From Owenia fusiformis (Eukaryota; Annelida; Polychaeta; Sabellida; Oweniidae), in assembly GCA_903813345.2 (NCBI GenBank), contig CAIIXF020000009.1, positions 15,018,347-15,082,346 of the forward strand: a stretch of 64,000 nt of DNA, read 5' to 3'. Of this stretch, positions 6,123-58,965 are shown piece by piece. A program made the position numbers and the translations under genes. The notes below the pieces were generated by a model, which was given only the letters and a program-made list of their open reading frames with translations, made no database searches and was not told the origin of the DNA. Position 1 is the stretch's first letter. Every line of letters starts with the position of its first letter.

Positions 6123-6304
6123 GATGAGTCGTCCAGGGGATGAGTATGAGTTGTCTAGGGGATGAGTTGTCTAGGAGATGAGTTGTCCAGGGGATGAGTT
6201 GTCTAGGGGATGAGTTGTCCAGGGATGAATTTTCTAGGGGATGAGTTGTCTAGGAGATGAGATGTCCAGGGGATGAGTTGTCCAGGGGATGAGATATCCA
6301 GGAG
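6123..6304. repeat. 16-bp minisatellite, inverted array (GATGAGTTGTCCAGGG)
   Basis: About eleven copies of GATGAGTTGTCCAGGG or close variants, the reverse complement of the 5051-5206 unit. A third, short array lies at 23299-23343. Confidence 0.95.
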
Positions 6305-32900: not shown

Positions 32901-33673
32901 GATGTAAGCCCGGGACCATACATACTGTGGCCCCGATAGCTGCACTGGGTACGCGGCTACAGAGGTTCTTGAGGTAGACCAAGGAGCATGCATCCGGTGG
33001 TCAAGATAGCTACACTGGCTACGCGGCTACAGAGGTTCTTGAGATACCCCTAGAACCATTCATGCGGTGGCTACGCTACCTATACTTGTTTTGCGGCTAC
33101 AGATGTTCTGGATGTAAGCCTAGGACGAAACGTACTGTGACCCCGATAGCTGCACTGGGTACACGGGTACAGAGGTTCTTGAGGTAAACCTAGGAGCATG
33201 CATGCATTGGCTACACTAGCTACACTGGCTATGCGGCTAGAGATGTTCTCGAGGTAAGCCCAGGACCATACATACTGTGGCCCCGATAGCTGCACTGGGT
33301 ACGTGGCTAGAGAGGTTCTTGAGGTAAACCTAGGAGCATGCATGCGTTGGCTACGCTAGCTACACTGACAATGCAGCTTGAGAGGTTCTGGAGGTAAGCC
33401 CAAGAGCATACATCCGATGGTCACGATAGCTACACTGGCTACGCGGCTACAGAGGTTCTTGAGGTACCCCTAGGTGGCTATGCTAGCTGCACAGGCTACG
33501 TGTCTACACAGGGTCTGGAGGTAACTGTAAGAATATGCATGCGCTAGCTACGCTAACTACACTGGTTATGCAGCTAGAGAGGTTCTTGAGGTAAGCCCAG
33601 GAGCATACATCAGGTGGTCACGATAGCTCCACTGGCTACGTGGCTAAAGATTTCTTGAGGTACCCCTAGGACC

Positions 33674-33800
33674 ATTATACATGTCATGATATAGGGAGAA
33701 AATCAAAAAACTCAAGGCCTGTGTTACATTTGCTAACTGTATATTGAATGCTCTTACTATGCTAGAATATTTTCTCTCACTATATCTTGACACTGTTTTA
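33674..33800. mobile_element. 127-bp MITE-like insertion in satellite, copy A site 1
   Basis: Non-satellite, AT-rich sequence inserted between AGGACC (33668-33673) and AGGACC (33801-33806), a 6-bp target duplication. The ends are imperfect inverted repeats: ACATGTCATGATATAGGGAG against the mirror of TCACTATATCTTGACACTGT, then AGAAAAT against ATTTTCT. No coding. Confidence 0.85.
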
Positions 33801-35736
33801 AGGACCCTGCATGCGCTAGCTACATTGGCTTTGCGTCTACAAATGTTCTGGATGTAAGCCCAGGACCATACATACTATGGCCCCGATAGCTGCACTGGGT
33901 ACGTGGCTACAGAGGTTCTTGAGGTAAACATAGGAGCATGCATGCGTTGGCTACGCTAGCTACACTGGCTAGGCAGCTAGAGAGGTTCTGGAGGTAAGCC
34001 CAGTACCCCTTAGACCATGCATGCGGTGGCTACGCTATCTACACTGGCTTTACGGCTACAGAGGTTCTGGATATAAGCCCAGGACGATACATTCTGTGGC
34101 CCCGATAGCTGCACTGGCTACACAGCAACAGAGGTTCTTGAGGTACCCCTAGGACCATGCATGCGTTGGCTACACTAGCTACACTCGCTATGCAGCTAGA
34201 GAGGTTCTCGAGGTAAGCCCAGGACCATACATACTCTGGCCCCGATAGCTGCACTGGGTACGCGGCTATAGAGGTTCTTGAGGTAAACCTAGGAGCATGC
34301 ATGCGTTGGCTACACTAGCTACACTCGCTATGCAGCTAGAGAGGTTCTAGAGGTAAGCCAAGGACCATGCATACTGTGGCCCCGATAGCTGCACTGGGTA
34401 CGCGGCTACAGAGGTTCTTGAGGTAAACCAAGGAGCATGCATGCGTTCGCTTACACTAGCTACACTGGCTATGCAGCTAGAGAGGTTCTCGAGGTAAGCC
34501 AAGGAGCATACATTCGGTGGTCAAGATAGCTACACTGGCTACGCGGCTACAGAGGTTCTTGAGGTAAACCTAGGAGCATGCATGCGTTGGCTACACTAGC
34601 TACACTCGCTATGCAGCTAGAGAGGTTCTCGAGGAAAGCCCAAGACCATACATACTTTGGCCCCGATAGCTGCACTGGGTACGCGGCTACAGAGGTTCTT
34701 GAGGTAAACCAAGGAGCTTGCATGCGTTGGCTACACTAGCTACACTGGCTATGCAGCTAGAGAGGTTCTCGAGGTAAGCCAAGGAGCATACATTCGGTGG
34801 TCAAGATAGCTACACTGGCTACGCGGCTACAGAGGTTCTTGAGGTAAACCTAGGAGCATGCATGCGTTGGCTACACTAGCTACACTCGCTATGCAGCTAG
34901 AGAGGTTCTCGAGGTAAGCCCAAGACCATACATACTGGGGCCCCGATAGCTGCACTGGGTACGCGGCTACAGAGGTTCTTGAGGTAAACCAAGGAGCATG
35001 CATGCGTTGGCTACACTAGCTACACTGGCTATGCAGCTAGAGAGGTTCTCGAGGTAAGCCAAGGAGCATACATTCGGTGGTCACGATAGCTACACTGGCT
35101 ACGCGGCTACAGAGGTACCCCCCTAGGAACATGCATGCGGTGGCTACGCTACCTTCACTGGCTTTGCTGCTACAGATGTTCTGGATGTAAGCCCGGGACC
35201 ATACATACTGTGGCCCTGATAGCTACACTGGCTACGCGGCCACAGAGGTAACCCTAGGAGCATGATGCGTTGGCTACGCTAGCTACACTGGCTGTGCATC
35301 CAGAGAGGTCCTGGAGGTAAGCCCAGGAGCATACATCCGGTGGTCACGATAGTTACACTGGCTATGGGGCTACAGAGGTTCTTGAGGTAACCCTAGGAGC
35401 ATGCATGCGTTGGCTACGCTAGCTACACTGACTATGCAGCTTGAGAGGTTCTGGAGGTAAGCCCAAGAGCATACATCCGGTGGTCACGATAGCTACACTG
35501 GCTACACGGCTACAGAGGTTCTTGAGGTACCCCTAGGTGGCTACGCTAGCTGCACAGGCTACGTGTCTACACAGGGTCTGGAGGTAACTGTAAGAATATG
35601 CATGCGCTAGCTACGCTAACTACACTGGCTATGCAGCTAGAGAGGTTCTTGAGGTAAGCCCAGGAGCATACATCCGGTGGTAACGATAGCTCCACTGGCT
35701 ACGTGGCTTAAGATTTCTTGAGGTACCCCTAGGACC

Positions 35737-35863
35737 ATTATACATGTCATGATATAGGGAGAAAATCAAAAAACTCAAGGCCTGTGTTACATTTGCTAAC
35801 TGTATATTGAATGCTCTTACTATGCTAGAATATTTTCTCTCACTATATCTTGACACTGTTTTA
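35737..35863. mobile_element. 127-bp MITE-like insertion, copy A site 2
   Basis: Same insertion at the same base of the monomer as site 1, with AGGACC on both sides (35731-35736, 35864-35869). The following monomer reads GCATGCGTTGGATACG instead of GCATGCGCTAGCTACA, which tells site 2 from site 1. Confidence 0.85.
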
Positions 35864-38800
35864 AGGACCCTGCATGCGTTGGATACGCTAGCTACATTGG
35901 CTTTGCGGCTACAAATGTTCTGGATGTAAGCCTAGGACCATACATACTGTGGCCCCGATAGCTGCACTGGGTACGTGGCTACAGAGGTTTTTGAGGTAAA
36001 CCTAGGAGCATGCATGCGATGGCTAAGCTAGCTACACTGGCTATGCAGCTAGAGAGGTTCTGGAGGAAAGCCCAGTACCCCTTAGACCATGCATGCGGTG
36101 GCTACACTATCTACACTGGCTTTACGGCTACAGAGGTTCTGGATATAAGCCCAGGACGATACATTCTGTGGCCCCGATAGCTGCACTGGGTATGCGGCTA
36201 CAGAGTTTCTGGATGTAAGCCCAGGACCATACATTCTGTGGTCCCGATAGCTGCACTGGCTTCGCTGCTACATAGGTTCTTGAGGTAAACCTAGGAGCAT
36301 GCATGCGTTTGCTACGCTAGCTACACTGGCTATGCAGCTAGAGAGGTTCTGGAGGTAAGCCCAGTACCCCTAAGACCATGCATGCGGCGGCTACGCTCTC
36401 TACACTGGCTTTGCAGCTACAGAGGTTCTGGATGTAAGCCCAGGACCATACATACTGTGGCCCCGATAGCTACACTGGTTACACGGCTACAGAGGTTCTT
36501 GAGGTAAGCCCAGGACGAAACATACTGTGAACCCGATAGCTGCACTGGGTACGCGGCTACAGAGGCTCTTGGGGTAAACCTAGGAGCATGCATGCGTTGG
36601 CTACACTAGCTAGACTGGCTATGCAGCTAGAGAGGTTCTCGAGGTAAGCCCAGGACCATACATACTGTGGCCCCGATAGCTGCACTGGGTACGTGGCTAC
36701 AGAGGTTCTTGAGGTAAACCTAGGAGCATGCATGCGTTGGCTACGCTAGCTACACTGAATATGCAGCTAGAGAGGTTCTCGAGGTAAGCCAAGGAGCATA
36801 CATTTGGTGGTCAAGATAGCTTAACTGGCTACGCAGCTACAGAGGTTCTTGAGGTAAACCCAGGAAAATGCATGCGTTGGCTACACTAGCTACACTCGCT
36901 ATGCAGCTAGAGAGGTTCTCGAGGTAAGCCCAAGACCATACATACTGTGGCCCCGACAGCTGCACTGGGTACGCGGCTACAGAGGTTCTTGAGGTAAACC
37001 AAGGAGCATGCATGCGTTGGCTACACTAGCTACACTGGCTATGCAGCTAGAGAGGTTCTCGAGGTAAGCCAAGGAGCATACATTCGGTGGTCAAGATAGC
37101 TACACTGGCTACGCGGCTACAGAGGTTCTTGAGGTACCCCTACGACCATTCATGCGGTGGCTACGCTAGCTACACAGGCTACGTGTCTACACAGGGTCTG
37201 GAGATATGTAAGAATATGCATGCGCTAGCTACGCTAACTACACTGGCTATGCAGCTAGAGAGGTTCTTGAGGTAAGCCCAGGAGCATACATGCGGTGGTC
37301 ACAATAGCTACACTGGCTACGCGTCTACAGACGTTCTTGATGTACCCCTAGGACCATGCATGCGATGGCTACGCTACCTATACTGGTTTTGCGGCTACAG
37401 ATGTTCTGGATGTAAGCCCAGGACCATACATACTGTGGCCCCGATAGCTGCACTGGGTACGTGGCTACAGAGGTTCTTGAGGTAAACCTAGGAGCATGCA
37501 TGCGTTGGCTACACTAGCTACACTGGCTATGCAGCTAGAGAGGTTCTCGAGGTAAGCCCAGGACCATACATACTGTGGCCCCGATAGCTGCACTGGGTAC
37601 GTGGCTACAGAGGTTCTTGAGGTAAACCTAGGGGCATGCATGCGTTAGCTACGCTAGCTACACTGAATATGCAGCTAGAGAGGTTCTCGAGGTAAGCCCA
37701 GGACCATACATACTCTGGCCCCGATAGCTGCACTGGGTACGCGGCTATAGAGGTTCTTGAGGTAAACCTAGGAGCATGCATGCGTTGGCTACACTAGCTA
37801 CACTCGCTATGCAGCTAGAGAGGTTCTCGAGGTAAACCCAGGACCATACATACTGTGGCCCCGATAGCTGCACTGGGTACGTGGCTACAGAGGTTCTTGA
37901 GGTAAACCTAGGAGCATGCATGCGTGGCTACACTAGCTACACTGGCTATGCAGCTAGAGAGGTTCTCGAGGGAAGCCCAGGACCATACATACTGTGGCCC
38001 CGATAGCTGCACTGGGTACGTGGCTACAGAGGTTCTTGAGGTAAACCTAGGAGCATGCATGCGTTGGCTACGCTAGCTACACTGAATATGCAGCTAGAGA
38101 GGTTTTCGAGGTAAGCCAAGGAGCATACATTCGGTGGTCAAGATAGCTACACTGGCTACGCGGCTACAGAGGTTCTTGAGGTAAATCTAGGAGCATGCAT
38201 GCGTTTGCTACACTAGCTACACTCGCTATGCAGCTAGAGAGGTTCTCGAGGTAAGCCCAAGACCATACATACTGTGGCCCCGATAGCTGCACTGGGTACG
38301 CGGCTACAGAGGTTCTTGAGGTAAACCTAGGAGCATGCTTGCGTTGGCTACACTAGCTACACTGGCTATGCGGCTAGAGATGTTCTCGAGGTAAGCCCAG
38401 GACCATACATACTGTGGCCCCGATAGCTGCACTGGGTACGTGGCTACAGAGGTTCTTGAGGTAAACCTAGGAGCATGCATGCATTGGCTACACTAGCTAC
38501 ATTGGATATGCAGCTAGAGAGGTTCAGGAGGTAAGCCCAGTACCCCTTAGACGATGCATGCGGTGGCTACGCTATCTACACTGGCTTTGCCGCTACAGAG
38601 GTTCTGGATGTAAGCCCAAGACGATACATTCTGTGGCCCCGATAGCTGCACTGGCTACGCGGCAACAGAGGTTCTTGAGGTACCCCTAGGACCATGCATG
38701 CGGTGGCTACGCTACCTACACTGGATTTGCGGCTACAGATGTTCTAGATGTAAGCCTAGGACGAAACATACTGTGACCCCGATAGCTGCACTGGCTACGC

Positions 38801-41800
38801 GGCTACAGATGTTCTTGAAGTAAACCTAGGAGCATGCATGCGTTGGCTACGCTGGCTACACTGGCTATGCAGCTAGAGAGGTTCTCGAGGTAAGCCAAGG
38901 ACCATACATACTGTGGCCCCGATAGCTGCACTGGGTACGCGGCTACAGAGGTTCTTGAGGTAAACCAAGGAGCATGCATGCGTTGGCTACACTAGCTACA
39001 CTGGTTATGCAGCTAGAGAGGTTCTCGAGGTAAGCCCAGGACCATACATACTGTGGCCCCGATAGCTGCACTGGGTACGTGGCTACAGAGGTTCTTGAGG
39101 TAAACCTAGGAGCATGCATGCGTTGGCTACGCTAGCTACACTGAATATGCAGCTAGAGAGGTTTTCGAGGTAAGCCAAGGAGCATACATTCGGTGGTCAA
39201 GATAGCTACACTGGCTACGCGGCTACAGAGGTTCTTGAGGTAAATCTAGGAGCATGCATGCGTTTGCTACACTAGCTACACTCGCTATGCAGCTAGAGAG
39301 GTTCTCGAGGTAAGCCCAAGACCATACATACTGTGGCCCCGATAGCTGCACTGGGTACGCGGCTACAGAGGTTCTTGAGGTAAACCTAGGAGCATGCTTG
39401 CGTTGGCTACACTAGCTACACTGGCTATGCGAATAGAGATGTTCTCGAGGTAAGCCCAGGACCATACATACTGTGGCCCCGATAGCTGCACTGGGTACGT
39501 GGCTACAGAGGTTCTTGAGGTAAACCTAGGAGCATGCATGCGTTGGCTACACTAGCTACACTGGCTATGCAGCTAGAGAGGTTCTCGAGGTAAGCCCAGG
39601 ACCATACATACTGTGGCCCCGATAGCTGCACTGGGTACGTGGCTACAGAGGTTCTTGAGGTAAACCTAGGAGCATGCATGCTTTGGCTACGCTAGCTACA
39701 CTGAATATGCACAGGGGCCAAGGAGCATACATCCGGTGGTCAAGATAGCTACACGGCTACGCGGCTACAGAGGTTCTTGAGATACCCCTAGGACCATTAG
39801 CATACATGCGGTGGTCACAATAGCTACACAGGCTAAGCGGCTACAGAGGTTCTTGATGTACCCCTAGGACCATGCGTGCGATGGCTACGCTACCTATACT
39901 GGTTTTGCAGCTACTGGGTACGCGGCTACAGAGGTTCTTGAGGTAAACCTAGGAGCATGCTTGCGTTGGCTACACTAGCTGCACTGGCTACGCGGCTACA
40001 GATGTTCTTGAAGTAAACCTAGGAGCATGCATGCGTTGGCTACGCTGGCTACACTGGCTATGCAGCTAGAGAGGTTCTCGAGGTAAGCCCAGGACCATAC
40101 ATACTGTGGCCCCGATAGCTGCACTGGGTACGCAGCTACAGAGGTTCTTGAGGTAAACCAAGGAGCATGCATGCGTTGGCTACACTAGCTACACTGGCTA
40201 TGCAGCTAGAGAGGTTCTCGAGGTAAGCCAAGGAGCATACATCCGGTGGTCAAGATAGCTACACGGCTACGCGTCTACAGAGGTTCTTGAGATACCCCTA
40301 GGACCATTCATGCGGTGGCTACGCTAGCTATATAGGCTACGTGTCTACACAGGGTCTGGAGATATGTAAGAATATGCATTCGCTAGCTACGCTAACTACA
40401 CTGGCTATGCAGCTAGAGAGGTTCTTGAGGTAAGCCCAGGACCATACATACTGTGGCCCCGATAGCTGCACTGGGTACGTGGCTACAGAGGTTCTTGAGG
40501 TAAACCTAGGAGCATGCATGCGTTGGCTACACTAGCTACACTGGCTATGCAGCTAGAGAGGTTCTCGAGGTAAGCCCAGGACCATACATACTGTGGCCCC
40601 GATAGCTGCACTGGGTACGTGGCTACAGAGGTTCTTGAGGTAAACCTAGGAGCATGCATGCGTTGGCTACACTAGCTACACTGGCTATGCAGCTAGAGAG
40701 GTTCTCGAGGTAAGCCCAGGACCATACATACTGTGGCCCCGATAGCTGCACTGGGTACGTGGCTACAGAGGTTCTTGAGGTAAACCTAGGAGCAAGCATG
40801 CGTTGGCTACGCTAGCTACACTGAATATGCAGCTAGAGAGCTTCTCGAGGTAAGCCCAGGACCATACATACTCTGGCCCCGATAGCTGCACTGGGTACGC
40901 GGCTATAGAGGTTCTTGAGGTAAACCTAGGAGCATGCATGCGTTGGCTACACTAGCTACACTCGCTATGCAGCTAGAGAGGTTCTCGAGGTAAGCCCAGG
41001 ACCATACATACTGTGGCCCCGATAGCTGCACTGGGTACGCGGCTACAGAGGTTCTTGAGGTAAAGCAAGGAGCATGCATGCGTTCGCTTACACTAGCTAC
41101 ACTGGCTATGCAGCTAGAGAGGTTCTCGAGGTAAGCCAAGGAGCATACATTCGGTGGTCAAGATAGCTACACTGGCTACGCGGCTACAGAGGTTCTTGAG
41201 GTAAACCTAGGAGCGTGCATGCGTTGGCTACACTAGCTACACTCGCTATGCAGCTAGAGAGGTTCTCGAGGAAAGCCCAAGACCATACATACTGTGGCCC
41301 CGGTAGCTGCACTGGATACGCGGCTACAGAGGTTCTTGAGGTAAACCAAGGAGCATGCATGCGTTGGTTACACTAGCTACACTGGCTATGCAGCTAGATA
41401 GGTTCTCGAGGTAAGCCCAAGACCATTACATTCGGTGGTCACTATAGCTACACTGGCTACGCGGCTACAGAGGTACCCCCCTAGGAACATGCATGCGGTG
41501 GCTACGCTACCTTCACTGGCTTTGCGGCTACAGATGTTCTGGATGTAAGCCCGGGACCATACATACTGTGGCCCTGATAGCTACACTGGCTACGCGGCCA
41601 CAGAGGTAACCCTAGGAGCATGATGCGTTGGCTACGCTAGCTACACTGACTATGCAGCTTGAGAGGTTCTGGAGGTAAGCCCAAGAGCATACATCCGGTG
41701 GTCACGATAGCAGGCTACGTGTCTACACAGGGTCTGGAGATATATAAGAATATGCATGCGCTAGCTACGCTAACTACACTGGCTATGCAGCTAGAGAGGT

Positions 41801-43752
41801 TCTTGAGATAATCCCAGGAGCATACATGCGCGGGTCACAATAGCTAAACAGGCTATGCGGCTACAGAGGTTCTTGATGTACCCCTGCGATGGCTACGCTA
41901 CCTATACTGGCTTTGCGGCTACAGAGGTTCTGGATGTAAGCCTAGGACGAAACGTACTGTGACCCCGATAGCTGCACTGGGTACACGGCTACAGAGGTTC
42001 TTGAGGTAAACCTAGGAGCATGCATGCGTTGGCTACACTAGCTACACTGGCTATGCGGCTAGAGATGTTCTCGAGGTAAGTCCAGGACCATACATTCTGT
42101 GGTCCCAATAGCTTCACTGGCTTCGCGGCTACAGAGGTTCTTGAGGTAACCCTAGCAGCATGCATGTGTTGGCTACGCTAGCTACACTGACTATGCAGCT
42201 AGAGAGGATCTGGAGGTAAGCCCAGGAGCATACATCCGGTGGTCACGATAGCTACACTGGCTACGCGGCTACAGAGGGTCTTGGGGTACCCCTAGAAACA
42301 TGCATGCAGTGGCTACGCTACCTACACTGGCTTTGCGGCTACAGAGGTTCTGGATGTAAGCCTAGGACGAAACATACGTGACCCCGATAGCTGCACTGGG
42401 TACGCAGCTACAGAGGTTCTTGAGGTAAACCTAGGAGCATGCATGCGTTGGCTACACTAGCTACACTCGCTATGCAGCTAGAGAGGTTCTCGAGGTAAGC
42501 CCAGGACCATACATACTGTGGCCCCGATAGCTGCACTGGGTACGCAGCTCCAGAGGTTCTTGAGGTAAACCAAGGAGCATGCATGCGTTGGCTACACTAG
42601 CTACACTCGCTATGCAGCTAGAGAGGTTCTCGAGGTAAGCCCAAGACCATACATACTGGGGCCCCGATAGCTGCACTGGGTACGCAGCTACAGAGGTTCT
42701 TGAGATACCCCTAGGACCATTCATGCGTTGGCTACGCTAGCTACACAGGCTACGTGTCTACACAGGATCTGGAGATATGTAAGAATATGCATTCGCTAGC
42801 TACGCTAACTACACTAGCAATGCAGCTAGAGAGGTTCTTGAGGTAAGCCCAGGAGCATACATGCGGTGGTCACAATAGCTACACAGGCTAAGCGGCTATA
42901 GAGGTTCTTGATGTACCCCTAGGACCATGCATGCGATGACTACGCTACCTATACTGGTTTTGCGGCTACAGATGTTCTGGATGTAAGCCCGGGACTATAC
43001 ATACTGTGGCCCCGATAGCTGCACTGGGTACGCGGCTACAGAGGTTCTTGAGGTAGACCAAGGAGCATGCATCCGGTGGTCAAGATAGCTACACTGGCTA
43101 CGCGGCTACAGAGGTTCTTGAGATACCCCTAGAACCATTCATGCGGTGGCTACGCTACCTATACTTGTTTTGCGGCTACAGATGTTCTGGATGTAAGCCT
43201 AGGACGAAACGTACTGTGACCCCGATAGCTGCACTGGGTACACGGCTACAGAGGTTCTTGAGGTAAACCTAGGAGCATGCATGCGTTGGCTACACTAGCT
43301 ACACTGGCTATGCGGCTAGAGATGTTCTCGAGGTAAGCCCAGGACCATACATACTGTGGCCCCGATAGCTGCACTGGGTACGTGGCTACAGAGGTTCTTG
43401 AGGTAAACCTAGGAGCATGCATGCGTTGGCTACGCTAGCTACACTGACAATGCAGCTTGAGAGGTTCTGGAGGTAAGCCCAAGAGCATACATCCGATGGT
43501 CACGATAGCTACACTGGCTACGCGGCTACAGAGGTTCTTGAGGTACCCCTAGGTGGCTATGCTAGCTGCACAGGCTACGTGTCTACACAAGGTCTGGAGG
43601 TAACTGTAAGAATATGCATGCGCTAGCTACGCTAACTACACTGGTTATGCAGCTAGAGAGGTTCTTGAGGTAAGCCCAGGAGCATACATCAGGTGGTCAC
43701 GATAGCTCCACTGGCTACGTGGCTAAAGATTTCTTGAGGTACCCCTAGGACC

Positions 43753-43879
43753 ATTATACATGTCATGATATAGGGAGAAAATCAAAAAACTCAAGGCCTG
43801 TGTTACATTTGCTAACTGTATATTGAATGCTCTTACTATGCTAGAATATTTTCTCTCACTATATCTTGACACTGTTTTA
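43753..43879. mobile_element. 127-bp MITE-like insertion, copy B site 1
   Basis: Flanked by AGGACC on both sides and by the site-1 downstream monomer GCATGCGCTAGCTACA. Confidence 0.85.
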
Positions 43880-46514
43880 AGGACCCTGCATGCGCTAGCT
43901 ACATTGGCTTTGCGTCTACAAATGTTCTGGATGTAAGCCCAGGACCATACATACTATGGCCCCGATAGCTGCACTGGGTACGTGGCTACAGAGGTTCTTG
44001 AGGTAAATATAGGAGCATGCATGCGTTGGCTACGCTAGCTACACTGGCTAGGCAGCTAGAGAGGTTCTCGAGGTAAGCCCAGGACCATACATACTGTGGC
44101 CCCGATAGCTGCACTGGGTACGTGGCTACAGAGGTTCTTGAGGTAAACCTAGGAGCATGCATGCGTTGGCTACACTAGCTACACTGGCTATGCAGCTAGA
44201 GAGGTTCTCGAGGTAAGCCCAGGACCATACATACTGTGGCCCCGATAGCTGCACTGGGTACGTGGCTACAGAGGTTCTTGAGGTAAACCTAGGAGCATGC
44301 ATGCGTTGGCTACGCTAGCTACACTGAATATGCAGCTAGAGAGCTTCTCGAGGTAAGCCCAGGACCATACATACTCTGGCCCCGATAGCTGCACTGGGTA
44401 CGCGGCTATAGAGGTTCTTGAGGTAAACCTAGGAGCATGCATGCGTTGGCTACACTAGCTACACTGGCTAGGCAGCTAGAGAGGTTCTGGAGGTAAGCCC
44501 AGTACCCCTTAGACCATGCATGCGGTGGCTACGCTATCTACACTGGCTTTACGGCTACAGAGGTTCTGGATATAAGCCCAGGACGATACATTCTGTGGCC
44601 CCGATAGCTGCACTGGCTACACAGCAACAGAGGTTCTCGAGGTACCCCTAGGACCATGCATGCGTTGGCTACACTAGCTACACTCGCTATGCAGCTAGAG
44701 AGGTTCTCGAGGTAAGCCCAGGACCATACATACTCTGGCCCCGATAGCTGCACTGGGTACGCGGCTATAGAGGTTCTTGAGGTAAACCTAGGAGCATGCA
44801 TGCGTTGGCTACACTAGCTACACTCGCTATGCAGCTAGAGAGGTTCTCGAGGTAAGCCAAGGAGCATACATTCGGTGGTCAAGATAGCTACACTGGCTAC
44901 GCGGCTACAGAGGTTCTTGAGGTAAACCTAGGAGCATGCATGCGTTGGCTACACTAGCTACACTCGCTATGCAGCTAGAGAGGTTCTCGAGGTAAGCCCA
45001 AGACCATACATACTGGGGCCCCGATAGCTGCACTGGGTACGCGGCTACAGAGGTTCTTGAGGTAAACCAAGGAGCATGCATGCGTTGGCTACACTAGCTA
45101 CACTGGCTATGCAGCTAGAGAGGTTCCCGAGGTAAGCCAAGGAGCATACATTCGGTGGTCAAGATAGCTACACTGGCTACGCGGCTACAGAGGTTCTTGA
45201 GGTAAACCTAGGAGCATGCATGCGTTGGCTACACTAGCTACACTCGCTATGCAGCTAGAGAGGTTCTCGAGGTAAGCCAAGGAGCATACATTCGGTGGTC
45301 AAGATAGCTACACTGGCTACGCGGCTACAGAGGTTCTTGAGGTAAACCTAGGAGCATGCATGCGTTGGCTACACTAGCTACACTCGCTATGCAGCTAGAG
45401 AGGTTCTCGAGGAAAGCCCAAGACCATACATACTTTGGCCCCGATAGCTGCACTGGGTACGCGGCTACAGAGGTTCTTGAGGTAAACCAAGGAGCTTGCA
45501 TGCGTTGGCTACACTAGCTACACTGGCTATGCAGCTAGAGAGGTTCTCGAGGTAAGCCAAGGAGCATACATTCGGTGGTCAAGATAGCTACACTGGCTAC
45601 GCGGCTACAGAGGTTCTTGAGGTAAACCTAGGAGCATGCATGCGTTGGCTACACTAGCTACACTCGCTATGCAGCTAGAGAGGTTCTCGAGGTAAGCCCA
45701 AGACCATACATACTGGGGCCCCGATAGCTGCACTGGGTACGCGGCTACAGAGGTTCTTGAGGTAAACCAAGGAGCATGCATGCGTTGGCTACACTAGCTA
45801 CACTGGCTATGCAGCTAGAGAGGTTCTCGAGGTAAGCCAAGGAGCATACATTCGGTGGTCACGATAGCTACACTGGCTACGCGGCTACAGAGGTACCCCC
45901 CTAGGAACATGCATGCGGTGGCTACGCTACCTTCACTGGCTTTGCGGCTACAGATGTTCTGGATGTAAGCCCAGGACCATACATACTGTGGCCCTGATAG
46001 CTACACTGGCTACGCGGCCACAGAGGTAACCCTAGGAGCATGATGCGTTGGCTACGCTAGCTACACTGGCTGTGCATCCAGAGAGGTCCTGGAGGTAAGC
46101 CCAGGAGCATACATCCGGTGGTCACGATAGTTACACTGGCTATGGGGCTACAGAGGTTCTTGAGGTAACCCTAGGAGCATGCATGCGTTGGCTACGCTAG
46201 CTACACTGACTATGCAGCTTGAGAGGTTCTGGAGGTAAGCCCAAGAGCATACATCCGGTGGTCACGATAGCTACACTGGCTACACGGCTACAGAGGTTCT
46301 TGAGGTACCCCTAGGTGGCTACGCTAGCTGCACAGGCTACGTGTCTACACAGGGTCTGGAGGTAACTGTAAGAATATGCATGCGCTAGCTACGCTAACTA
46401 CACTGGCTATGCAGCTAGAGAGGTTCTTGAGGTAAGCCCAGGAGCATACATCCGGTGGTAACGATAGCTCCACTGGCTACGTGGCTTAAGATTTCTTGAG
46501 GTACCCCTAGGACC

Positions 46515-46641
46515 ATTATACATGTCATGATATAGGGAGAAAATCAAAAAACTCAAGGCCTGTGTTACATTTGCTAACTGTATATTGAATGCTCTTACTA
46601 TGCTAGAATATTTTCTCTCACTATATCTTGACACTGTTTTA
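46515..46641. mobile_element. 127-bp MITE-like insertion, copy B site 2
   Basis: Flanked by AGGACC and followed by the site-2 monomer GCATGCGTTGGATACG. Confidence 0.85.
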
Positions 46642-49600
46642 AGGACCCTGCATGCGTTGGATACGCTAGCTACATTGGCTTTGCGGCTACAAATGTTCTG
46701 GATGTAAGCCCAGGACCATACATACTGTGGCCCCGATAGCTGCACTGGGTACGTGGCTACAGAGGTTTTTGAGGTAAACCTAGGAGCATGCATGCGATGG
46801 CTAAGCTAGCTACACTGGCTATGCAGCTAGAGAGGTTCTGGAGGAAAGCCCAGTACCCCTTAGACCATGCATGCTGTGGCTACACTATCTACACTGGCTT
46901 TACGGCTACAGAGGTTCTGGATATAAGCCCAGGACGATACATTCTGTGGCCCCGATAGCTGCACTGGGTATGCGGCTACAGAGTTTCTGGATGTAAGCCC
47001 AGGACCATACATTCTGTGGTCCCGATAGCTGCACTGGCTTCGCTGCTACATAGGTTCTTGAGGTAAACCTAGGAGCATGCATGCGTTTGCTACGCTAGCT
47101 ACACTGGCTATGCAGCTAGAGAGGTTCTGGAGGTAAGCCCAGTACCCCTAAGACCATGCATGCGGCGGCTACGCTCTCTACACTGGCTTTGCAGCTACAG
47201 AGGTTCTGGATGTAAGCCCAGGACCATACATACTGTGGCCCCGATAGCTACACTGGTTACACGGCTACAGAGGTTCTTGAGGTAAGCCCAGGACGAAACA
47301 TACTGTGAACCCGATAGCTGCACTGGGTACGCGGCTACAGAGGCTCTTGAGGTAAACCTAGGAGCATGCATGCGTTGGCTACACTAGCTAGACTGGCTAT
47401 GCAGCTAGAGAGGTTCTCGAGGTAAGCCCAGGACCATACATACTGTGGCCCCGATAGCTGCACTGGGTACGTGGCTACAGAGGTTCTTGAGGTAAACCTA
47501 GGAGCATGCATGCGTTGGCTACGCTAGCTACACTGAATATGCAGCTAGAGAGGTTCTCGATGTAAGCCAAGGAGCATACATTTGGTGGTCAAGATAGCTT
47601 AACTGGCTACGCAGCTACAGAGGTTCTTGAGGTAAACCCAGGAAAATGCATGCGTTGGCTACACTAGCTACACTCGCTATGCAGCTAGAGAGGTTCTCGA
47701 GGTAAGCCCAAGACCATACATACTGTGGCCCCGATAGCTGCACTGGGTACGCGGCTACAGAGGTTCTTGAGGTAAACCAAGGAGCATGCATGCGTTGGCT
47801 ACACTAGCTACACTGGCTATGCAGCTAGAGAGGTTCTCGAGGTAAGCCAAGGAGCATACATTCGGTGGTCAAGATAGCTACACTGGCTACGCGGCTACAG
47901 AGGTTCTTGAGGTACCCCTACGACCATTCATGCGGTGGCTACGCTAGCTACACAGGCTACGTGTCTACACAGGGTCTGGAGATATGTAAGAATATGCATG
48001 CGCTAGCTACGCTAACTACACTGGCTATGCAGCTAGAGAGGTTCTTTAGGTAAGCCCAGGAGCATACATGCGGTGGTCACAATAGCTACACTGGCTACGC
48101 GTCTACAGACGTTCTTGATGTACCCCTAGGACCATGCATGCGATGGCTACGCTACCTATACTGGTTTTGCGGCTACAGATGTTCTGGATGTAAGCCCAGG
48201 ACCATACATACTGTGGCCCCGATAGCTGCACTGGGTACGTGGCTACAGAGGTTCTTGAGGTAAACCTAGGAGCATGCATGCGTTGGCTACACTAGCTACA
48301 CTGGCTATGCAGCTAGAGAGGTTCTCGAGGTAAGCCCAGGACCATACATACTGTGGCCCCGATAGCTGCACTGGGTACGTGGCTACAGAGGTTCTTGAGG
48401 TAAACCTAGGGGCATGCATGCGTTAGCTACGCTAGCTACACTGAATATGCAGCTAGAGAGGTTCTCGAGGTAAGCCCAGGACCATACATACTCTGGCCCC
48501 GATAGCTGCACTGGGTACGCGGCTATAGAGGTTCTTGAGGTAAACCTAGGAGCATGCATGCGTTGGCTACACTAGCTACACTCGCTATGCAGCTAGAGAG
48601 GTTCTCGAGGTAAGCCCAGGACCATACATACTGTGACCCCGATAGCTGCACTGGGTACGCGGCTACAGAGGCTCTTGAGGTAAACCTAGGAGCATGCATG
48701 CGTTGGCTACGCTAGCTACACTGGCTATGCAGCTAGAGAGGTTCTCGAGGTAAGCCCAGGACCATACATACTGTGGCCCCGATAGCTGCACTGGGTACGT
48801 GGTTACAGAGGTTCTTGAGGTAAACCTAGGAGCATGCATGCGTTGGCTACACTAGCTACACTGGCTATGCAGCTAGAGAGGTTCTCGAGGTAAGCCCAGG
48901 ACCATACATACTGTGGCCCCGATAGCTGCACTGGGTACGTGGCTACAGAGGTTCTTGAGGTAAACCTAGGAGCATGCATGCGTTGGCTACGCTAGCTACA
49001 CTGAATATGCAGCTAGAGAGGTTTTCGAGGTAAGCCAAGGAGCATACATTCGGTGGTCAAGATAGCTACACTGGCTACGCGGCTACAGAGGTTCTTGAGG
49101 TAAATCTAGGAGCATGCATGCGTTTGCTACACTAGCTACACTCGCTATGCAGCTAGAGAGGTTCTCGAGGTAAGCCCAAGACCATACATACTGTGGCCCC
49201 GATAGCTGCACAGGGTACGCGGCTACAGAGGTTCTTGAGGTAAACCTAGGAGCATGCTTGCGTTGGCTACACTAGCTACACTGGCTATGCGGCTAGAGAT
49301 GTTCTCGAGGTAAGCCCAGGACCATACATACTGTGGCCCCGATAGCTGCACTGGGTACGTGGCTACAGAGGTTCTTGAGGTAAACCTAGGAGCATGCATG
49401 CGTTGGCTACACTAGCTACATTGGATATGCAGCTAGAGAGGTTCAGGAGGTAAGCCCAGTACCCCTTAGACGATGCATGCGGTGGCTACGCTATCTACAC
49501 TGGCTTTGCCGCTACAGAGGTTCTGGATGTAAGCCCAAGACGATACATTCTGTGGCCCCGATAGCTGCACTGGCTACGCGGCAACAGAGGTTCTTGAGGT

Positions 49601-52600
49601 ACCCCTAGGACCATGCATGCGGTGGCTACGCTACCTACACTGGCTTTGCGGCTACAGATGTTCTAGATGTAAGCCTAGGACGAAACATACTGTGACCCCG
49701 ATAGCTGCACTGGCTACGCGGCTACAGATGTTCTTGAAGTAAACCTAGGAGCATGCATGCGTTGGCTACGCTGGCTACACTGGCTATGCAGCTAGAGAGG
49801 TTCTCGAGGTAAGCCAAGGACCATACATACTGTGGCCCCGATAGCTGCACTGGGTACGCGGCTACAGAGGTTCTTGAGGTAAACCTAGGAGCATGCTTGC
49901 GTTGGCTACACTAGCTACACTGGCTATGCGGCTAGAGATGTTCTCGAGGTAAGCCCAGGAGCATACATCCGGTGGTCAAGATAGCTACACGGCTACGCGG
50001 CTACAGAGGTTCTTGAGGTAAACCTAGGAGCATGCATGCGTTGGCTACACTAGCTACATTGGATATGCAGCTAGAGAGGTTCAGGAGGTAAGCCCAGTAC
50101 CCCTTAGACGATGCATGCGGTGGCTACGCTATCTACACTGGCTTTGCCGCTACAGAGGTTCTGGATGTAAGCCCAAGACGATACATTCTGTGGCCCCGAT
50201 AGCTGCACTGGCTACGCGGCAACAGAGGTTCTTGAGGTACCCCTAGGACCATGCATGCGGTGGCTACGCTACCTACACTGGCTTTGCGGCTACAGATGTT
50301 CTAGATGTAAGCCTAGGACGAAACATACTGTGACCCCGATAGCTGCACTGGCTACGCGGCTACAGATGTTCTTGAAGTAAACCTAGGAGCATGCATGCGT
50401 TGGCTACGCTGGCTACACTGGCTATGCAGCTAGAGAGGTTCTCGAGGTAAGCCAAGGACCATACATACTGTGGCCCCGATAGCTGCACTGGGTACGCGGC
50501 TATAGAGGTTCTTGAGGTAAACCAAGGAGCATGCATGCGTTGGCTACACTAGCTACACTGGCTATGCAGCTAGAGAGGTTCTCGAGGTAAGCCAAGGAGC
50601 ATACATCCGGTGGTCAAGATAGCTACACGGCTACGCGGCTACAGAGGTTCTTGAGATACCCCTAGGACCATTAGCATACATGCGGTGGTCACAATAGCTA
50701 CACAGGTTAAGCGGCTACAGAGGTTCTTGATGTACCCCTAGGACCATGCATGCGATGGCTACGCTACCTATACTGGTTTTGCAGCTACTGGGTACGCGGC
50801 TACAGAGGTTCTTGAGGTAAACCTAGGAGCATGCTTGCGTTGGCTACACTAGCTACACTGGCTATGCGGCTAGAGATGTTCTCGAGGTAAGCCCAGGACC
50901 ATACAAACTGTGGCCCCGATAGCTGCACTGGGTACGTGGCTACAGAGGTTCTTGAGGTAAACCTAGGAGCATGCATGCGTTGGCTACACTAGCTACATTG
51001 GACATGCAGCTAGAGAGGTTCAGGAGGTAAGCCCAGTACCCCTTAGACGATGCATGCGGTGGCTACGCTATCTACACTGGCTTTGCCGCTACAGAGGTTC
51101 TGGATGTAAGCCCAAGACGATACATTCTGTGGCCCCGATAGCTGCACTGGCTACGCGGCAACAGAGGTTCTTGAGGTACCCCTAGGACCATGCATGCGGT
51201 GGCTACGCTACCTACACTGGCTTTGCGGCTACAGATGTTCTAGATGTAAGCCTAGGACGAAACATACTGTGACCCCGATAGCTGCACTGGCTACGCGGCT
51301 ACAGATGTTCTTGAAGTAAACCTAGGAGCATGCATGCGTTGGCTACGCTGGCTACACTGGCTATGCAGCTAGAGAGGTTCTCGAGGTAAGCCCAGGACCA
51401 TACATACTGTGGCCCCGATAGCTGCACTGGGTACGCGGCTACAGAGGTTCTTGAGGTAAACCAAGGAGCATGCATGCGTTGGCTACACTAGCTACACTGG
51501 CTATGCAGCTAGAGAGGTTCTCGAGGTAAGCCAAGGAGCATACATGCGGTGGTCAAGATAGCTACACGGCTACGCGGCTACAGAGGTTCTTGAGATACCC
51601 CTAGGACCATTCATGCGGTGGCTACGCTAGCTATATAGGCTACGTGTCTACACAGGGTCTGGAGATATGTAAGAATATGCATTCGCTAGCTACGCTAACT
51701 ACACTGGCTATGCAGCTAGAGAGGTTCTTGAGGTAAGCCCAGGACCATACATACTGTGGCCCCGATAGCTGCACTGGGTACGTGGCTACAGAGGTTCTTG
51801 CTAAACCTAGGAGCATGCATGCGTTGGCTACACTAGCTACACTGGCTATGCAGCTAGAGAGGTTCTCGAGGTAAGCCCAGGACCATACATACTGTGGCCC
51901 CGATAGCTGCACTGGGTACGTGGCTACAGAGGTTCTTGAGGTAAACCTAGGAGCATGCATGCGTTGGCTACACTAGCTACACTGGCTATGCAGCTAGAGA
52001 GGTTCTCGAGGTAAGCCCAGGACCATACATACTGTGGCCCCGATAGCTGCACTGGGTACGTGGCTACAGAGGTTCTTGAGGTAAACCTAGGAGCATGCAT
52101 GCGTTGGCTACACTAGCTACACTGGCTATGCAGCTAGAGAGGTTCTCGAGGTAAGCCCAGGACCATACATACTGTGGCCCCGATAGCTGCACTGGGTACG
52201 TGGCTACAGAGGTTCTTGAGGTAAACCTAGGAGCATGCATGCGTTGGCTACGCTAGCTACACTGAATATGCAGCTAGAGAGCTTCTCGAGGTAAGCCCAG
52301 GACCATACATACTCTGGTCCCGATAGCTGCACTGGGTACGCGGCTATAGAGGTTCTTGAGGTAAACCTAGGAGCATGCATGCGTTGGCTACACTAGCTAC
52401 ACTCGCTATGCAGCTAGAGAGGTTCTCGAGGTAAGCCCAGGACCATACATACTGTGGCCCCGATAGCTGCACTGGGTACGCGGCTACAGAGGTTCTTGAG
52501 GTAAACCAATGAGCATGCATGCGTTCGCTTACACTAGCTACACTGGCTATGCAGCAGAGAGGTTCTCGAGGTAAGCCAAGGAGCATACATTCGGTGGTCA

Positions 52601-55600
52601 AGATAGCTACACTGGCTACGCGGCTACAGAGGTTCTTGAGGTAAACCTAGGAGCGTGCATGCGTTGGCTACACTAGCTACACTCGCTATGCAGCTAGAGA
52701 GGTTCTCGAGGAAAGCCCAAGACCATACATACTGTGGCCCCGGTAGCTGCACTGGGTACGCGGCTACAGAGGTTCTTGAGGTAAACCAAGGAGCATGCAT
52801 GCGTTGGCTACACTAGCTACACTGGCTATGCAGCTAGATAGGTTCTCGAGGTAAGCCAAGGAGCATACATTCGGTGGTCAAGATAGCTACACTGGCTAAG
52901 CGGCTACAGAGGTTCTTGAGGAAAACCTAGGAGCATGCATGCGTTGGCTACACTAGCTACACTGGCTATGCAGCTAGAGAGGTTTTCGAGGTAAGCCAAG
53001 GAGCATACATTCGGTGGTCACTATAGCTACACTGGCTACGCGGCTACAGAGGTACCCCCCTAGGAACATGCATGCGGTGGCTACGCTACCTTCACTGGCT
53101 TTGCGGCTACAGATGTTCTGGATGTAAGCCCGGGACCATACATACTGTGGCCCTGATAGCTACACTGGCTACGCAGCCACAGAGGTAACCCTAGGAGCAT
53201 GATGCGTTGGCTACGCTAGCTACACTGGCTGTAAATCCAGAGAGGTCCTTGAGGTAAGCCCAGGAGCATACATCCGGTGGTCACGATAGCTACACTGGCT
53301 ATGGGGCTACAGAGGTTCTTGAGGTAACCCTAGGAGCATGCATGCGTTGGCTACGCTAGCTACACTGACTATGCAGCTTGAGAGGTTCTGGAGGTAAGCC
53401 CAAGAGCATACATCCGGTGGTCACGATAGCAGGCTACGTGTCTACACAGGGTCTGGAGATATATTAGAATATGCATGCGCTAGCTACGCTAACTACACTG
53501 GCTATGCAGCTAGAGAGGTTCTTGAGGTAATCCCAGGAGCATACATGCGGTGGTCACAATAGCTAAACAGGCTATGCGGCTACAGAGGTTCTTGATGTAC
53601 CCCTGCGATGGCTACGCTACCTATACTGGCTTTGCGGCTACAGAGGTTCTGGATGTAAGCCTAGGACGAAACGTACTGTGACCCCGATAGCTGCACTGGG
53701 TACACGGCTACAGAGGTTCTTGAGGTAAACCTAGGAGCATGCATGCGTTGGCTACACTAGCTACACTGGCTATGCGGCTAGAGATGTTCTCGAGGTAAGT
53801 CCAGGACCATACATTCTGTGGTCCCAATAGCTTCACTGGCTTCGCGGCTACAGAGGTTCTTGAGGTAACCCTAGCAGCATGCATGTGTTGGCTACGCTAG
53901 CTACACTGACTATGCAGCTAGAGAGGATCTGGAGGTAAGCCCAGGAGCATACATCCGGTGGTCACGATAGCTACACTGGCTACGCGGCTACAGAGGGTCT
54001 TGGGGTACCCCTAGGAACATGCATGCAGTGGCTACGCTACCTACACTGGCTTTGCGGCTACAGAGGTTCTGGATGTAAGCCTAGGACGAAACATACGTGA
54101 CCCCGATAGCTGCACTGGGTACGCAGCTACAGAGGTTCTTGAGGTAAACCTAGGAGCATGCATGCGTTGGCTACACTAGCTACACTCGATATGCAGCTAG
54201 AGAGGTTCTCGAGGTAAGCCCAGGACCATACATACTGTGGCCCCGATAGCTGCACTGGGTACGCAGCTCCAGAGGTTCTTGAGGTAAACCAAGGAGCATG
54301 CATGCGTTGGCTACACTAGCTACACTCGCTATGCAGCTAGAGAGGTTCTCGAGGTAAGCCCAAGACCATACATACTGGGGCCCCGATAGCTGCACTGGGT
54401 ACGCAGCTACAGAGGTTCTTGAGATACCCCTAGGACCATTCATGCGTTGGCTACGCTAGCTACACAGGCTACGTGTCTACACAGGATCTGGAGATATGTA
54501 AGAATATGCATTCGCTAGCTACGCTAACTACACTAGCAATGCAGCTAGAGAGGTTCTTGAGGTAAGCCCAGGAGCATACATGCGGTGGTCACAATAGCTA
54601 CACAGGCTAAGCGGCTATAGAGGTTCTTGATGTACCCCTAGGACCATGCATGCGATGACTACGCTACCTATACTGGTTTTGCGGCTACAGATGTTCTGGA
54701 TGTAAGCCCGGGACCATACATACTGTGGCCCCGATAGCTGCACTGGGTACGCGGCTACAGAGGTTCTTGAGGTAGACCAAGGAGCATGCATCCGGTGGTC
54801 AAGATAGCTACACTGGCTACGCGGCTACAGAGGTTCTTGAGATACCCCTAGAACCATTCATGCGGTGGCTACGCTACCTATACTTGTTTTGCGGCTACAG
54901 ATGTTCTGGATGTAAGCCTAGGACGAAACGTACTGTGACCCCGATAGCTGCACTGGGTACACGGCTACAGAGGTTCTTGAGGTAAACCTAGGAGCATGCA
55001 TGCGTTGGCTACACTAGCTACACTGGCTATGCGGCTAGAGATGTTCTCGAGGTAAGCCCAGGACCATACATACTGTGGCCCCGATAGCTGCACTGGGTAC
55101 GTGGCTACAGAGGTTCTTGAGGTAAACCTAGGAGCATGCATGCGTTGGCTACGGTAGCTACACTGACAATGCAGCTTGAGAGGTTCTGGAGGTAAGCCCA
55201 AGAGCATACATCCGATGGTCACGATAGCTACACTGGCTACGCGGCTACAGAGGTTCTTGAGGTACCCCTAGGTGGCTATGCTAGCTGCACAGGCTACGTG
55301 TCTACACAAGGTCTGGAGGTAACTGTAAGAATATGCATGCGCTAGCTACACTAGCTACACTGGCTATGCAGCTAGAGAGGTTCTCGAGGTAAGCCCAGGA
55401 CCATACATACTGTGGCCCCGATAGCTGCACTGGGTACGCAGCTCCAGAGGTTCTTGAGGTAAACCAAGGAGCATGCATGCGTTGGCTACACTAGCTACAC
55501 TGGCTATGCAGCTAGAGATGTTCTCGAGGTAAGCCAAGGAGCATACATCCGGTGGTCAAGATAGCTACACGGCTACGCGGCTACAGAGGTTCTTGAGATA

Positions 55601-56776
55601 CCCCTAGGACCATTCATGCGTTGGCTACGCTAGCTACACAGGCTACGTGTCTACACAGGATCTGGAGATATGTAAGAATATGCATTCGCTAGCTACGCTA
55701 ACTACACTAGCAATGCAGCTAGAGAGGTTCTTGAGGTAAGCCCAGGAGCATACATGCGGTGGTCACAATAGCTACACAGGCTAAGCGGCTATAGAGGTTC
55801 TTGATGTACCCCTAGGACCATGCATGCGATGACTACGCTACCTATACTGGTTTTGCGGCTACAGATGTTCTGGATGTAAGCCCGGGACCATACATACTGT
55901 GGCCCCGATAGCTGCACTGGGTACGCGGCTACAGAGGTTCTTGAGGTAGACCAAGGAGCATGCATCCAGTGGTCAAGATAGCTACACTGGCTACGCGGCT
56001 ACAGAGGTTCTTGAGATACCCCTAGAACCATTCATGCGGTGGCTACGCTACCTATACTTGTTTTGCGGCTACAGATGTTCTGGATGTAAGCCCAGGACCA
56101 TACATACTGTGGCCCTGATAGCTACACTGGCTACACGGCTACAGAGGTAACCCTAGGAGCATGCATGCGTTGGCTACGCTAGCTACACTGGCTGTGCATC
56201 CAGAGAGGTTCTGGATGTAAGCCTAGGACGAAACGTACTGTGACCCCGATAGCTGCACTGGGTACACGGCTACAGAGGTTCTTGAGGTAAACCTAGGAGC
56301 ATGCAAGCGTTGGCTACACTAGCTACACTGGCTATGCGGCTAGAGATGTTCTCGAGGTAAGCCCAGGACCATACATACTGTGGCCCCGATAGCTGCACTG
56401 GGTACGTGGCTACAGAGGTTCTTGAGGTAAACCTAGGAGCATGCATGCGTTGGCTACGCTAGCTACACTGACAATGCAGCTTGAGAGGTTCTGGAGGTAA
56501 GCCCAAGAGCATACATCCGATGGTCACGATAGCTACACTGGCTACGCGGCTACAGAGGTTCTTGAGGTACCCCTAGGTGGCTATGCTAGCTGCACAGGCT
56601 ACGTGTCTACACAGGGTCTGGAGGTAACTGTAAGAATATGCATGCGCTAGCTACGCTAACTACACTGGTTATGCAGCTAGAGAGGTTCTTGAGGTAAGCC
56701 CAGGAGCATACATCAGGTGGTCACGATAGCTCCACTGGCTACGTGGCTAAAGATTTCTTGAGGTACCCCTAGAACC

Positions 56777-56902
56777 ATTATACATGTCATGATATAGGGA
56801 GAAAATCAAAAACTCAAGGCCTGTGTTACATTTGCTAACTGTATATTGAATGCTCTTACTATGCTAGAATATTTTCTCTCACTATATCTTGACACTGTTT
56901 TA
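56777..56902. mobile_element. 126-bp MITE-like insertion, copy C site 1
   Basis: One A is missing from an internal A-run, and the left duplication reads AGAACC while the right is AGGACC. Site-1 downstream monomer. Confidence 0.85.
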
Positions 56903-58838
56903 AGGACCCTGCATGCGCTAGCTACATTGGCTTTGCGTCTACAAATGTTCTGGATGTAAGCCCAGGACCATACATACTATGGCCCCGATAGCTGCACTGG
57001 GTACGTGGCTACAGAGGTTCTTGAGGTAAACATAGGAGCATGCATGCGTTGGCTACGCTAGCTACACTGGGTAGGCAGCTAGAGAGGTTCTGGAGGTAAG
57101 CCCAGTACCCCTTAGACCATGCATGCGGTGGCTACGCTATCTACACTGGCTTTACGGCTACAGAGGTTCTGGATATAAGCCCAGGACGATACATTCTGTG
57201 GCCCCGATAGCTGCACTGGCTACACAGCAACAGAGGTTCTTGAGGTACCCCTAGGACCATGCATGCGTTGGCTACACTAGCTACACTCGCTATGCAGCTA
57301 GAGAGGTTCTCGAGGTAAGCCCAGGACCATACATACTCTGGCCCCGATAGCTGCACTGGGTACGCGGCTATAGAGGTTCTTGAGGTAAACCTAGGAGCAT
57401 GCATGCGTTGGCTACACTAGCTACACTCGCTATGCAGCTAGAGAGGTTCTCGAGGTAAGCCAAGGACCATGCATACTGTGGCCCCGATAGCTGCACTGGG
57501 TATGCGGCTACAGAGGTTCTTGAGGTAAACCAAGGAGCATGCATGCGTTCGCTTACACTAGCTACACTGGCTATGCAGCTAGAGAGGTTCTCGAGGTAAG
57601 CCAAGGAGCATACATTCGGTGGTCAAGATAGCTACACTGGCTACGCGGCTACAGAGGTTCTTGAGGTAAACCTAGTAGCATGCATGCGTTGGCTACACTA
57701 GCTACACTCGCTATGCAGCTAGAGAGGTTCTCGAGGAAAGCCCAAGACCATACATACTTTGGCCCCGATAGCTGCACTGGGTACGCGGCTACAGAGGTTC
57801 TTGAGGTAAACCAAGGAGCTTGCATGCGTTGGCTACACTAGCTACACTGGCTATGCAGCTAGAGAGGTTCTCGAGGTAAGCCAAGGAGCATACATTCGGT
57901 GGTCAAGATAGCTACACTGGCTACGCGGCTACAGAGGTTCTTGAGGTAAACCTAGGAGCATGCATGCGTTGGCTACACTAGCTACACTCGCTATGCAGCT
58001 AGAGAGGTTCTCGAGGTAAGCCCAAGACCATACATACTGGGGCCCCGATAGCTGCACTGGGTACGCGGCTACAGAGGTTCTTGAGGTAAACCAAGGAGCA
58101 TGCATGCGTTGGCTACACTAGCTACACTGGCTATGCAGCTAGAGAGGTTCTCGAGGTAAGCCAAGGAGCATACATTCGGTGGTCACGATAGCTACACTGG
58201 CTACGCGGCTACAGAGGTACCCCCCTAGGAACATGCATGCGGTGGCTACGCTACCTTCACTGGCTTTGCGGCTACAGATGTTCTGGATGTAAGCCCGGGA
58301 CCATACATACTGTGGCCCTGATAGCTACACTGGCTACGCGGCCACAGAGGTAACCCTAGGAGCATGATGCGTTGGCTACGCTAGCTACACTGGCTGTGCA
58401 TCCAGAGAGGTCCTGGAGGTAAGCCCAGGAGCATACATCCGGTGGTCACGATAGTTACACTGGCTCTGGGGCTACAGAGGTTCTTGAGGTAACCCTAGGA
58501 GCATGCATGCGTTGGCTACGCTAGCTACACTGACTATGCAGCTTGAGAGGTTCTGGAGGTAAGCCCAAGAGCATACATCCGGTGGTCACGATAGCTACAC
58601 TGGCTACACGGCTACAGAGGTTCTTGAGGTACCCCTAGGTGGCTACGCTAGCTGCACAGGCTACGTGTCTACACAGGGTCTGGAGGTAACTGTAAGAATA
58701 TGCATGCGCTAGCTACGCTAACTACACTGGCTATGCAGCTAGAGAGGTTCTTGAGGTAAGCCCAGGAGCATACATCCGGTGGTAACGATAGCTCCACTGG
58801 CTACGTGGCTTAAGATTTCTTGAGGTACCCCTAGGACC

Positions 58839-58965
58839 ATTATACATGTCATGATATAGGGAGAAAATCAAAAAACTCAAGGCCTGTGTTACATTTGCTA
58901 ACTGTATATTGAATGCTCTTACTATGCTAGAATATTTTCTCTCACTATATCTTGACACTGTTTTA
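58839..58965. mobile_element. 127-bp MITE-like insertion, copy C site 2
   Basis: Flanked by AGGACC and followed by the site-2 monomer. Confidence 0.85.

Follow-up and report, generated by a model that had tools for sequence, protein, structure and literature searches.

A MITE-like element apparently captured once by a satellite array of Owenia fusiformis and copied along with it in overlapping blocks

The insert and the array that carries it

The window, by which we mean the whole 64,000-nucleotide stretch of DNA that was analysed, contains a satellite array in which six copies of an AT-rich insert of 126-127 bp occupy the identical monomer position, at the places where an earlier reading of the letters alone (the sequence-only reading) had noticed them. 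The features are listed below; the alpha and beta lineages are defined further on.

29501..64000, no strand assigned: satellite array of 70-bp monomers, types A and B mostly alternating in a 140-bp dimer; continues past the window, with 500 N at 29001-29500 in front
33324..34005, plus strand: alpha module, reaching from ~350 bp before the insert to 205 bp after it; has alpha-private substitutions and, immediately to the right of the insert, a 9-bp deletion
33676..33800, plus strand: insert copy, lineage alpha (site 1), 125-bp element; target duplications 33668-33675 and 33801-33808
35387..36068, plus strand: beta module, same extent as the alpha module, with beta-private substitutions
35739..35863, plus strand: insert copy, lineage beta (site 2); target duplications 35731-35738 and 35864-35871
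43755..43879, plus strand: insert copy, lineage alpha; target duplications 43747-43754 and 43880-43887
46517..46641, plus strand: insert copy, lineage beta; target duplications 46509-46516 and 46642-46649
56779..56902, plus strand: insert copy, lineage alpha, 124 bp (A run one base shorter); left duplication mutated to AGAACCAT (56771-56778), right 56903-56910
58841..58965, plus strand: insert copy, lineage beta; target duplications 58833-58840 and 58966-58973

In the 127-bp reading, by which copies are named here, the inserts start at 33674, 35737, 43753, 46515, 56777, and 58839; five are identical over 127/127 positions, and copy 56777 has 126 bp. The insert (127 bp) has a GC content of 31%, versus 52% for the array within the window, and its inverted ends are imperfect, as had been noticed, with 86% identity over 21 bp in the satellite copies. 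The hexamer AGGACC, originally taken as a 6-bp duplication, indeed flanks the insert on both sides in five of the six copies (the left hexamer of 56777 is AGAACC), but the dispersed copies described below put the duplication at 8 bp and the true left end two bases inward of where the 127-bp reading has it. With these as reference, element and duplication measure 125 + 8 bp; the element begins with TATACATG, and the two preceding bases are part of the target duplication. In the satellite, the left duplication is AGGACCAT and the right one AGGACCCT, which agree at 7 of 8 bases. Uninterrupted neighbouring monomers, e.g., at 34151, read AGGACCATGCATGCG, a sequence that would fit the empty target of the insertion.

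A dispersed family of MITE-like elements

Searching the genome with the insert gave 103 candidates, 40 of which were scored, and the resulting counts are lower bounds: 14 lie in the satellite (13 on C9, the contig of the window, and one on C348) and at least 26 outside it, at 93-98% identity, on all of the 12 large contigs (C1-C12) and on C414. Solo copies of the 127-bp element outside the array, which the sequence-only reading had proposed to look for, thus exist in number, and the idea that the insert is an ordinary monomer variant is rejected because of them. We fetched 20 of the 26 for the comparison of duplications and substitutions (two of the dispersed copies, L014 and L015, have common flanks and are not independent). 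The target duplication is perfect over at least 8 bp in 11 of the 20 and has one mismatch in 8 in another, and eight of the fetched copies have no convincing duplication. The insert is short (125 bp, below the MITE limit of ~600 bp, with no room for a transposase gene), has imperfect terminal inverted repeats and a target duplication of constant length, and occurs in many similar dispersed copies; by these sequence features, it appears to be a member of a dispersed, non-coding, MITE-like family. An 8-bp target duplication is typical of both the hAT and the P superfamilies, so that the duplication of this family is a feature common to the two. A search with the profile PF12017 found no match in this genome, nor in any of 14 control genomes, and is therefore uninformative about the superfamily. 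Searches for Rfam families (at gathering scores), tRNAs, and phage sequences found nothing.

The family has longer relatives. At four loci (L028-L031, on C1, C5, C2, and C7, respectively), elements of 4.1-4.7 kb have insert-type ends, perfect duplications of at least 8 bp in all four cases, and a pair of tandem arrays of ~89-bp units in opposed orientation, and lack any stop-to-stop frame as long as 120 aa; in architecture, they are foldback-like, tandem-repeat-bearing elements. A fifth relative of 7.2 kb (L035) has insert-type ends without a target duplication, and four of its ORFs searched against Pfam had no match. No autonomous copy of the family was found among these long relatives, as judged by the frames of the first four and the four Pfam-searched ORFs of the fifth. 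At another locus (L032, C4:11811800-11817900), a family copy is divided by a sequence of ~5.8 kb, its halves overlapping by ~5 bases, as if another element had inserted into it. Two tracts in the window, at 5052-5206 and 6122-6302, consist of a 16-bp minisatellite and the reverse complement of it; they are ~0.9 kb apart, in an opposed-array layout that resembles that of the long elements.

Evidence for a single capture by the satellite

Beyond the window, there are seven further intact copies of the insert and a broken one on C9, and one copy on the unplaced contig C348. C56T, C106A, and the altered right duplication AGGACCCT are found in every one of the 14 intact satellite copies. T34A is present in 13 of the 14 and undecided in 56777, where it is not callable because the missing base falls in the run that holds this site. 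Each of the three substitutions occurs in 0 of the 20 dispersed copies examined. All other changes among the 14 copies are private, namely one missing base (56777), G15A (64127), A20G (92121), and A53G with T126A (105139). The right end is also distinctive, as evidenced by the position of the duplication: it starts five bases after CACTG in the satellite, whereas among the 11 dispersed copies whose duplication is perfect, the distance is three bases in 10 and two in one. Finally, the pattern of the target-monomer variant (up to 3 mismatches) has 15 matches in the genome, all of which are filled by the insert, one of them broken, and none of which lies on C522, another satellite-bearing contig. 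With this pattern, which more diverged modules would escape, we found no empty module of any lineage.

The broken fifteenth copy lies at ext 82925-83006 and on (C9:15101271; "ext" coordinates continue the window numbering along C9) and is disrupted by different, repeat-like sequence. Next to it lie a short filler and a further repeat family, parts of which are palindromic, and no satellite was found to its right up to the next N run.

The common private substitutions, the altered right duplication, and the fact that every match of the target variant is filled argue that the element was captured once by the satellite, and the sequence-only reading, which had proposed a single entry, is upheld by changes that unite the 14 intact copies and are absent from the 20 dispersed ones. 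A model in which the element inserted several times, independently, at a preferred satellite target could draw on the dispersal of the family and on the frequency of the target hexamer in the window (134 AGGACC on both strands), but it would have to produce the same two substitutions and the same altered duplication in 14 of 14 intact copies, and flank similarity reaches far past the target site. We reject independent insertions on these common private changes and regard this alternative as hardly credible.

Lineages of the interrupted module

We compared the flanks of the copies from ~350 bp left to 205 bp right of the insert. Alpha comprises 33674, 43753, 56777, 79727, the C348 copy, and most of 71282; beta comprises 35737, 46515, 58839, 64127, 73612, 97080, and 105139. 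Within the window, alpha corresponds to site 1 and beta to site 2. Between about -340 and +205, and with 71282 set aside, 15 fixed substitutions separate the flanks of the two lineages, in addition to the 9-bp deletion in alpha. We tested 18 differences between 33674 and 35737 with 17-base words, and in 16 of them, one allele has no more than a single occurrence elsewhere in the C9 array, beyond the modules, a count inflated by words that neighbouring differences have in common. Most of the differences therefore look like new mutations and not like templated changes. The third set, gamma, is made up of 92121 and of the flank to the left of the broken copy, neither of which has the private changes of alpha or beta in the compared stretch; farther left, 92121 has alpha-like bases.

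A tree of the flanks, with three empty paralogues as outgroup, groups the six alpha copies, including 71282, with a support of 91 (86 without 71282) and the seven beta copies with 98; gamma falls outside alpha + beta with a weak support of 67 (supports taken from the unrooted tree string). The expectation that site-1 copies would group with site 1 and site-2 copies with site 2 therefore holds in the flanks, while the insert carries no tree signal, its alignment having 5 variable and 0 informative columns out of 127. From these sequence comparisons, alpha and beta are firm lineages and gamma is a probable third one, which we infer to have branched first.

A mosaic copy and the question of conversion

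Copy 71282 has alpha bases from -346 to -193, non-alpha bases at -108 and -62, and beta-private bases at -55 and -28; alpha resumes at +14, with the 9-bp deletion, and on. The non-alpha tract thus ends somewhere between -193 and -108 on its left and between -28 and +14 on its right. The copy reads as a mosaic, apparently produced by an exchange tract or a double exchange that stops, on one side, within the insert or next to it. Conversion, which had been named as the outcome that would pull site 1 and site 2 together in the tree, is thus found in one copy and does not overturn the tree.

Alpha and beta have no fixed difference in the 127 bp of the insert versus 15 substitutions in ~545 bp of flank. 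Equal rates would give ~3.5 fixed insert differences, and the chance of observing none is ~0.03 (hand calculation). Recent private changes, counted by hand without the broken copy and a single shared site, number 18 substitutions in ~545 bp of flank and, in the insert, 4 substitutions plus 1 deletion; the rates are similar. Comparing old with recent changes, with indels counted (16 and 18 in the flanks, 0 and 5 in the insert), gives ~0.06 one-sided, and substitutions alone (15 and 18 versus 0 and 4) give 0.11, both by hand. CpG effects could account for part of the insert's lack of fixed differences. This lack, together with the short non-alpha tract and its two beta-private bases in the alpha background of 71282, would fit a move of the insert to the second module by gene conversion between diverged monomers instead of by duplication of the interrupted module. 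Fixed differences between alpha and beta lie as near as -28 and +14, however, so that tracts of ~170 bp or less would be required, no empty module of alpha, beta, or gamma type was found with the target-variant pattern, and the old-versus-recent comparison stops at the values above. We consider such a transfer improbable and find conversion as a general rule not shown at values of 0.03 to 0.11 (by hand). A related scenario, which we likewise consider unlikely, is that short conversion tracts with the insert at their centre homogenise it across diverged modules, and that it consequently coalesces later than its own flanks; if this were true, such inserts would be a direct ruler of the tract length of satellite conversion.

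Array growth by blocks of variable reach

The interrupted modules form four alpha-beta pairs, at distances of 2,063, 2,762, 2,062, and 2,330 bp, the fourth of which (71282/73612) lies beyond the window; the other insert copies stand singly. The sequence-only reading had proposed two sites about 2.06 kb apart, which fits two of the pairs in the window and not the third (2,762 bp), and a 10-kb unit with two inserts per copy, which fails on the variable spacing, the lag test, and the unpaired copies beyond the window. Such a regular higher-order unit amplified as a block would agree with the three alpha-beta pairs in the window and with a block that spans a whole pair (33105-36755 versus 56208-59857, 99.1%). 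Successive site-1 copies are, however, 10,079 and 13,024 bp apart and successive site-2 copies 10,778 and 12,324 bp, i.e., the offsets vary between 10.1, 10.8, 12.3, and 13.0 kb, and single alpha, beta, and gamma copies stand beyond the window, which contradicts such a unit provided that this part of the assembly is correct. Among monomer lags 1-399 (398 monomers in a 54-kb piece), the best fits 16% of 352 comparisons at up to 2 edits, a figure also lowered by gained or lost monomers. No regular higher-order period was found over these lags; long matching blocks occur at many offsets, and the array does not repeat one unit in register at high identity as a regular higher-order repeat does. The regular unit is thus very unlikely.

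The reach of matching blocks around the insert differs from pair to pair, as a selection of nine pairs illustrates (seven of them with an identity no lower than 97.4%).

33674/43753: at least 3.0 kb left, 0.2 kb right (97.0%)
33674/56777: 0.67 kb left, 2.95 kb right
43753/56777: 0.67 kb left, 0.2 kb right (96.8%)
35737/46515: 1.7 kb left, 2.7 kb right
35737/58839: 2.7 kb left, 0.9 kb right
35737/64127: 1.7 kb left, 2.6 kb right
46515/64127: 2.0 kb left, 2.8 kb right
35737/73612: 0.5 kb left, 0.65 kb right
97080/105139: 1.5 kb left, 2.6 kb right

In a comparison of every pair among the 13 C9 copies (78 pairs; C348 left out), the best blocks reach 97% in 16 of the 31 within-lineage pairs, with lengths of 0.9-4.9 kb, and in 0 of the 47 between-lineage pairs. 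The best blocks of the remaining 15 within-lineage pairs stand at 89-97%, which argues that contexts have been reshuffled and that a clean duplication series cannot be drawn; copy 79727, for example, has an alpha module, yet its wider context fits no alpha copy well (89-95%).

An active role of the element as amplification driver is unsupported. At 97.5% identity, windows with the insert (n = 36) have a median of 8 copies versus 6 for 581 others, 28% of which have at least 8; the medians are 8.5 versus 7 at 96% and 6 versus 4 at 99%. Windows that contain the insert have been copied with about the same frequency as the rest, and the element therefore appears to ride along.

A proposed history and its parallels

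The history that we propose, and hold to be highly probable as a whole, is one of single insertion, passive block copying by the array, and divergence into three or more sets of flanks. It would involve 1) one insertion of a 125-bp, MITE-like, non-coding transposon with an 8-bp target duplication into an A-type monomer on C9; 2) incorporation of the interrupted monomer and its flanks into the array, whose exchange processes would then have copied them passively, by unequal crossing-over, segmental duplication, and occasional conversion, in blocks of ~1-5 kb; 3) divergence of the flanks into at least the alpha, beta, and gamma sets; and 4) subsequent copying of alpha and beta, at times jointly as a pair ~2 kb apart. 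The single origin, the alpha and beta lineages, the variable block reach, and the one mosaic copy are established within this history; unequal exchange, instead of another duplication process, is our presumed route of copying, and the absolute time order of events is presumed likewise. A single insertion is a tag on each surrounding satellite copy that is very unlikely to arise twice, and this tag let the lineages, one mosaic copy, and the reach of copied blocks be read from one array. The blocks indicate that the array grows by overlapping segments of ~1-5 kb and has no fixed unit.

A foreign insertion carried along by a satellite is a known kind of event, here well resolved. The 500-bp repeat of Arabidopsis has been proposed to be half a pAL1 repeat that was duplicated and then received a foreign element (PMC8122249). 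As in the present array, a single insertion in a satellite monomer enters the repeated unit; unlike in that account, dispersed relatives of the insert are found here, and the interrupted monomer is a minority variant of the array. The spread of satellite variants by exchange is described as concerted evolution or molecular drive via unequal crossing-over and conversion (PMC5615363). Here too, a variant spreads through exchange within the array, but the variant is here a tag of 133 bp instead of a single-base change, in an array with a block-mosaic structure. The long relatives, with their two opposed ~89-bp arrays, resemble the tandem-repeat-bearing MITEs and foldback elements (Donax trunculus; Tetris in Drosophila virilis) named in titles that PMC5615363 cites, whereas the insert itself has 125 bp without an array, and there is no hint that the satellite derives from the element. 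Mobile-element terms have no match in PMC11062924.

Assembly context and neighbouring sequences

N runs of exactly 500 lie at ext 29001, 83501, and 112001, and the pieces between them measure exactly 54,000 and 28,000 bp; C348 has exactly 21,000 bp and C522 exactly 50,000 bp, and the satellite-bearing C169 and C83 are not round. These runs may be assembly gaps from a scaffolder that cuts and joins pieces. Given the N run before the satellite and pieces in exact multiples of 500, the left 29 kb of the window may not truly adjoin the array, and the order of the pieces, the true array ends, and the status of C348 as an allele are uncertain for the same reasons. The order of the copies depends on this fragmented assembly. 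The C348 copy looks very different on the right because its array stops ~0.4 kb right of the insert.

The satellite pattern (0-1 mismatches) occurs on C9, C83, C169, C348, and C522 only, among the 100 of 649 matches listed. At C522:20001-30000 (L036, the one scored of 136 candidates), there is a diverged satellite array with 76-85% identity to the C9 query in 11 matches. In the left part of the window, the minus strand of 18822-20802 holds fragments of a reverse-transcriptase element (PF00078, E 5e-18), together with a match to the zinc-binding PF13966 below the cut-off.
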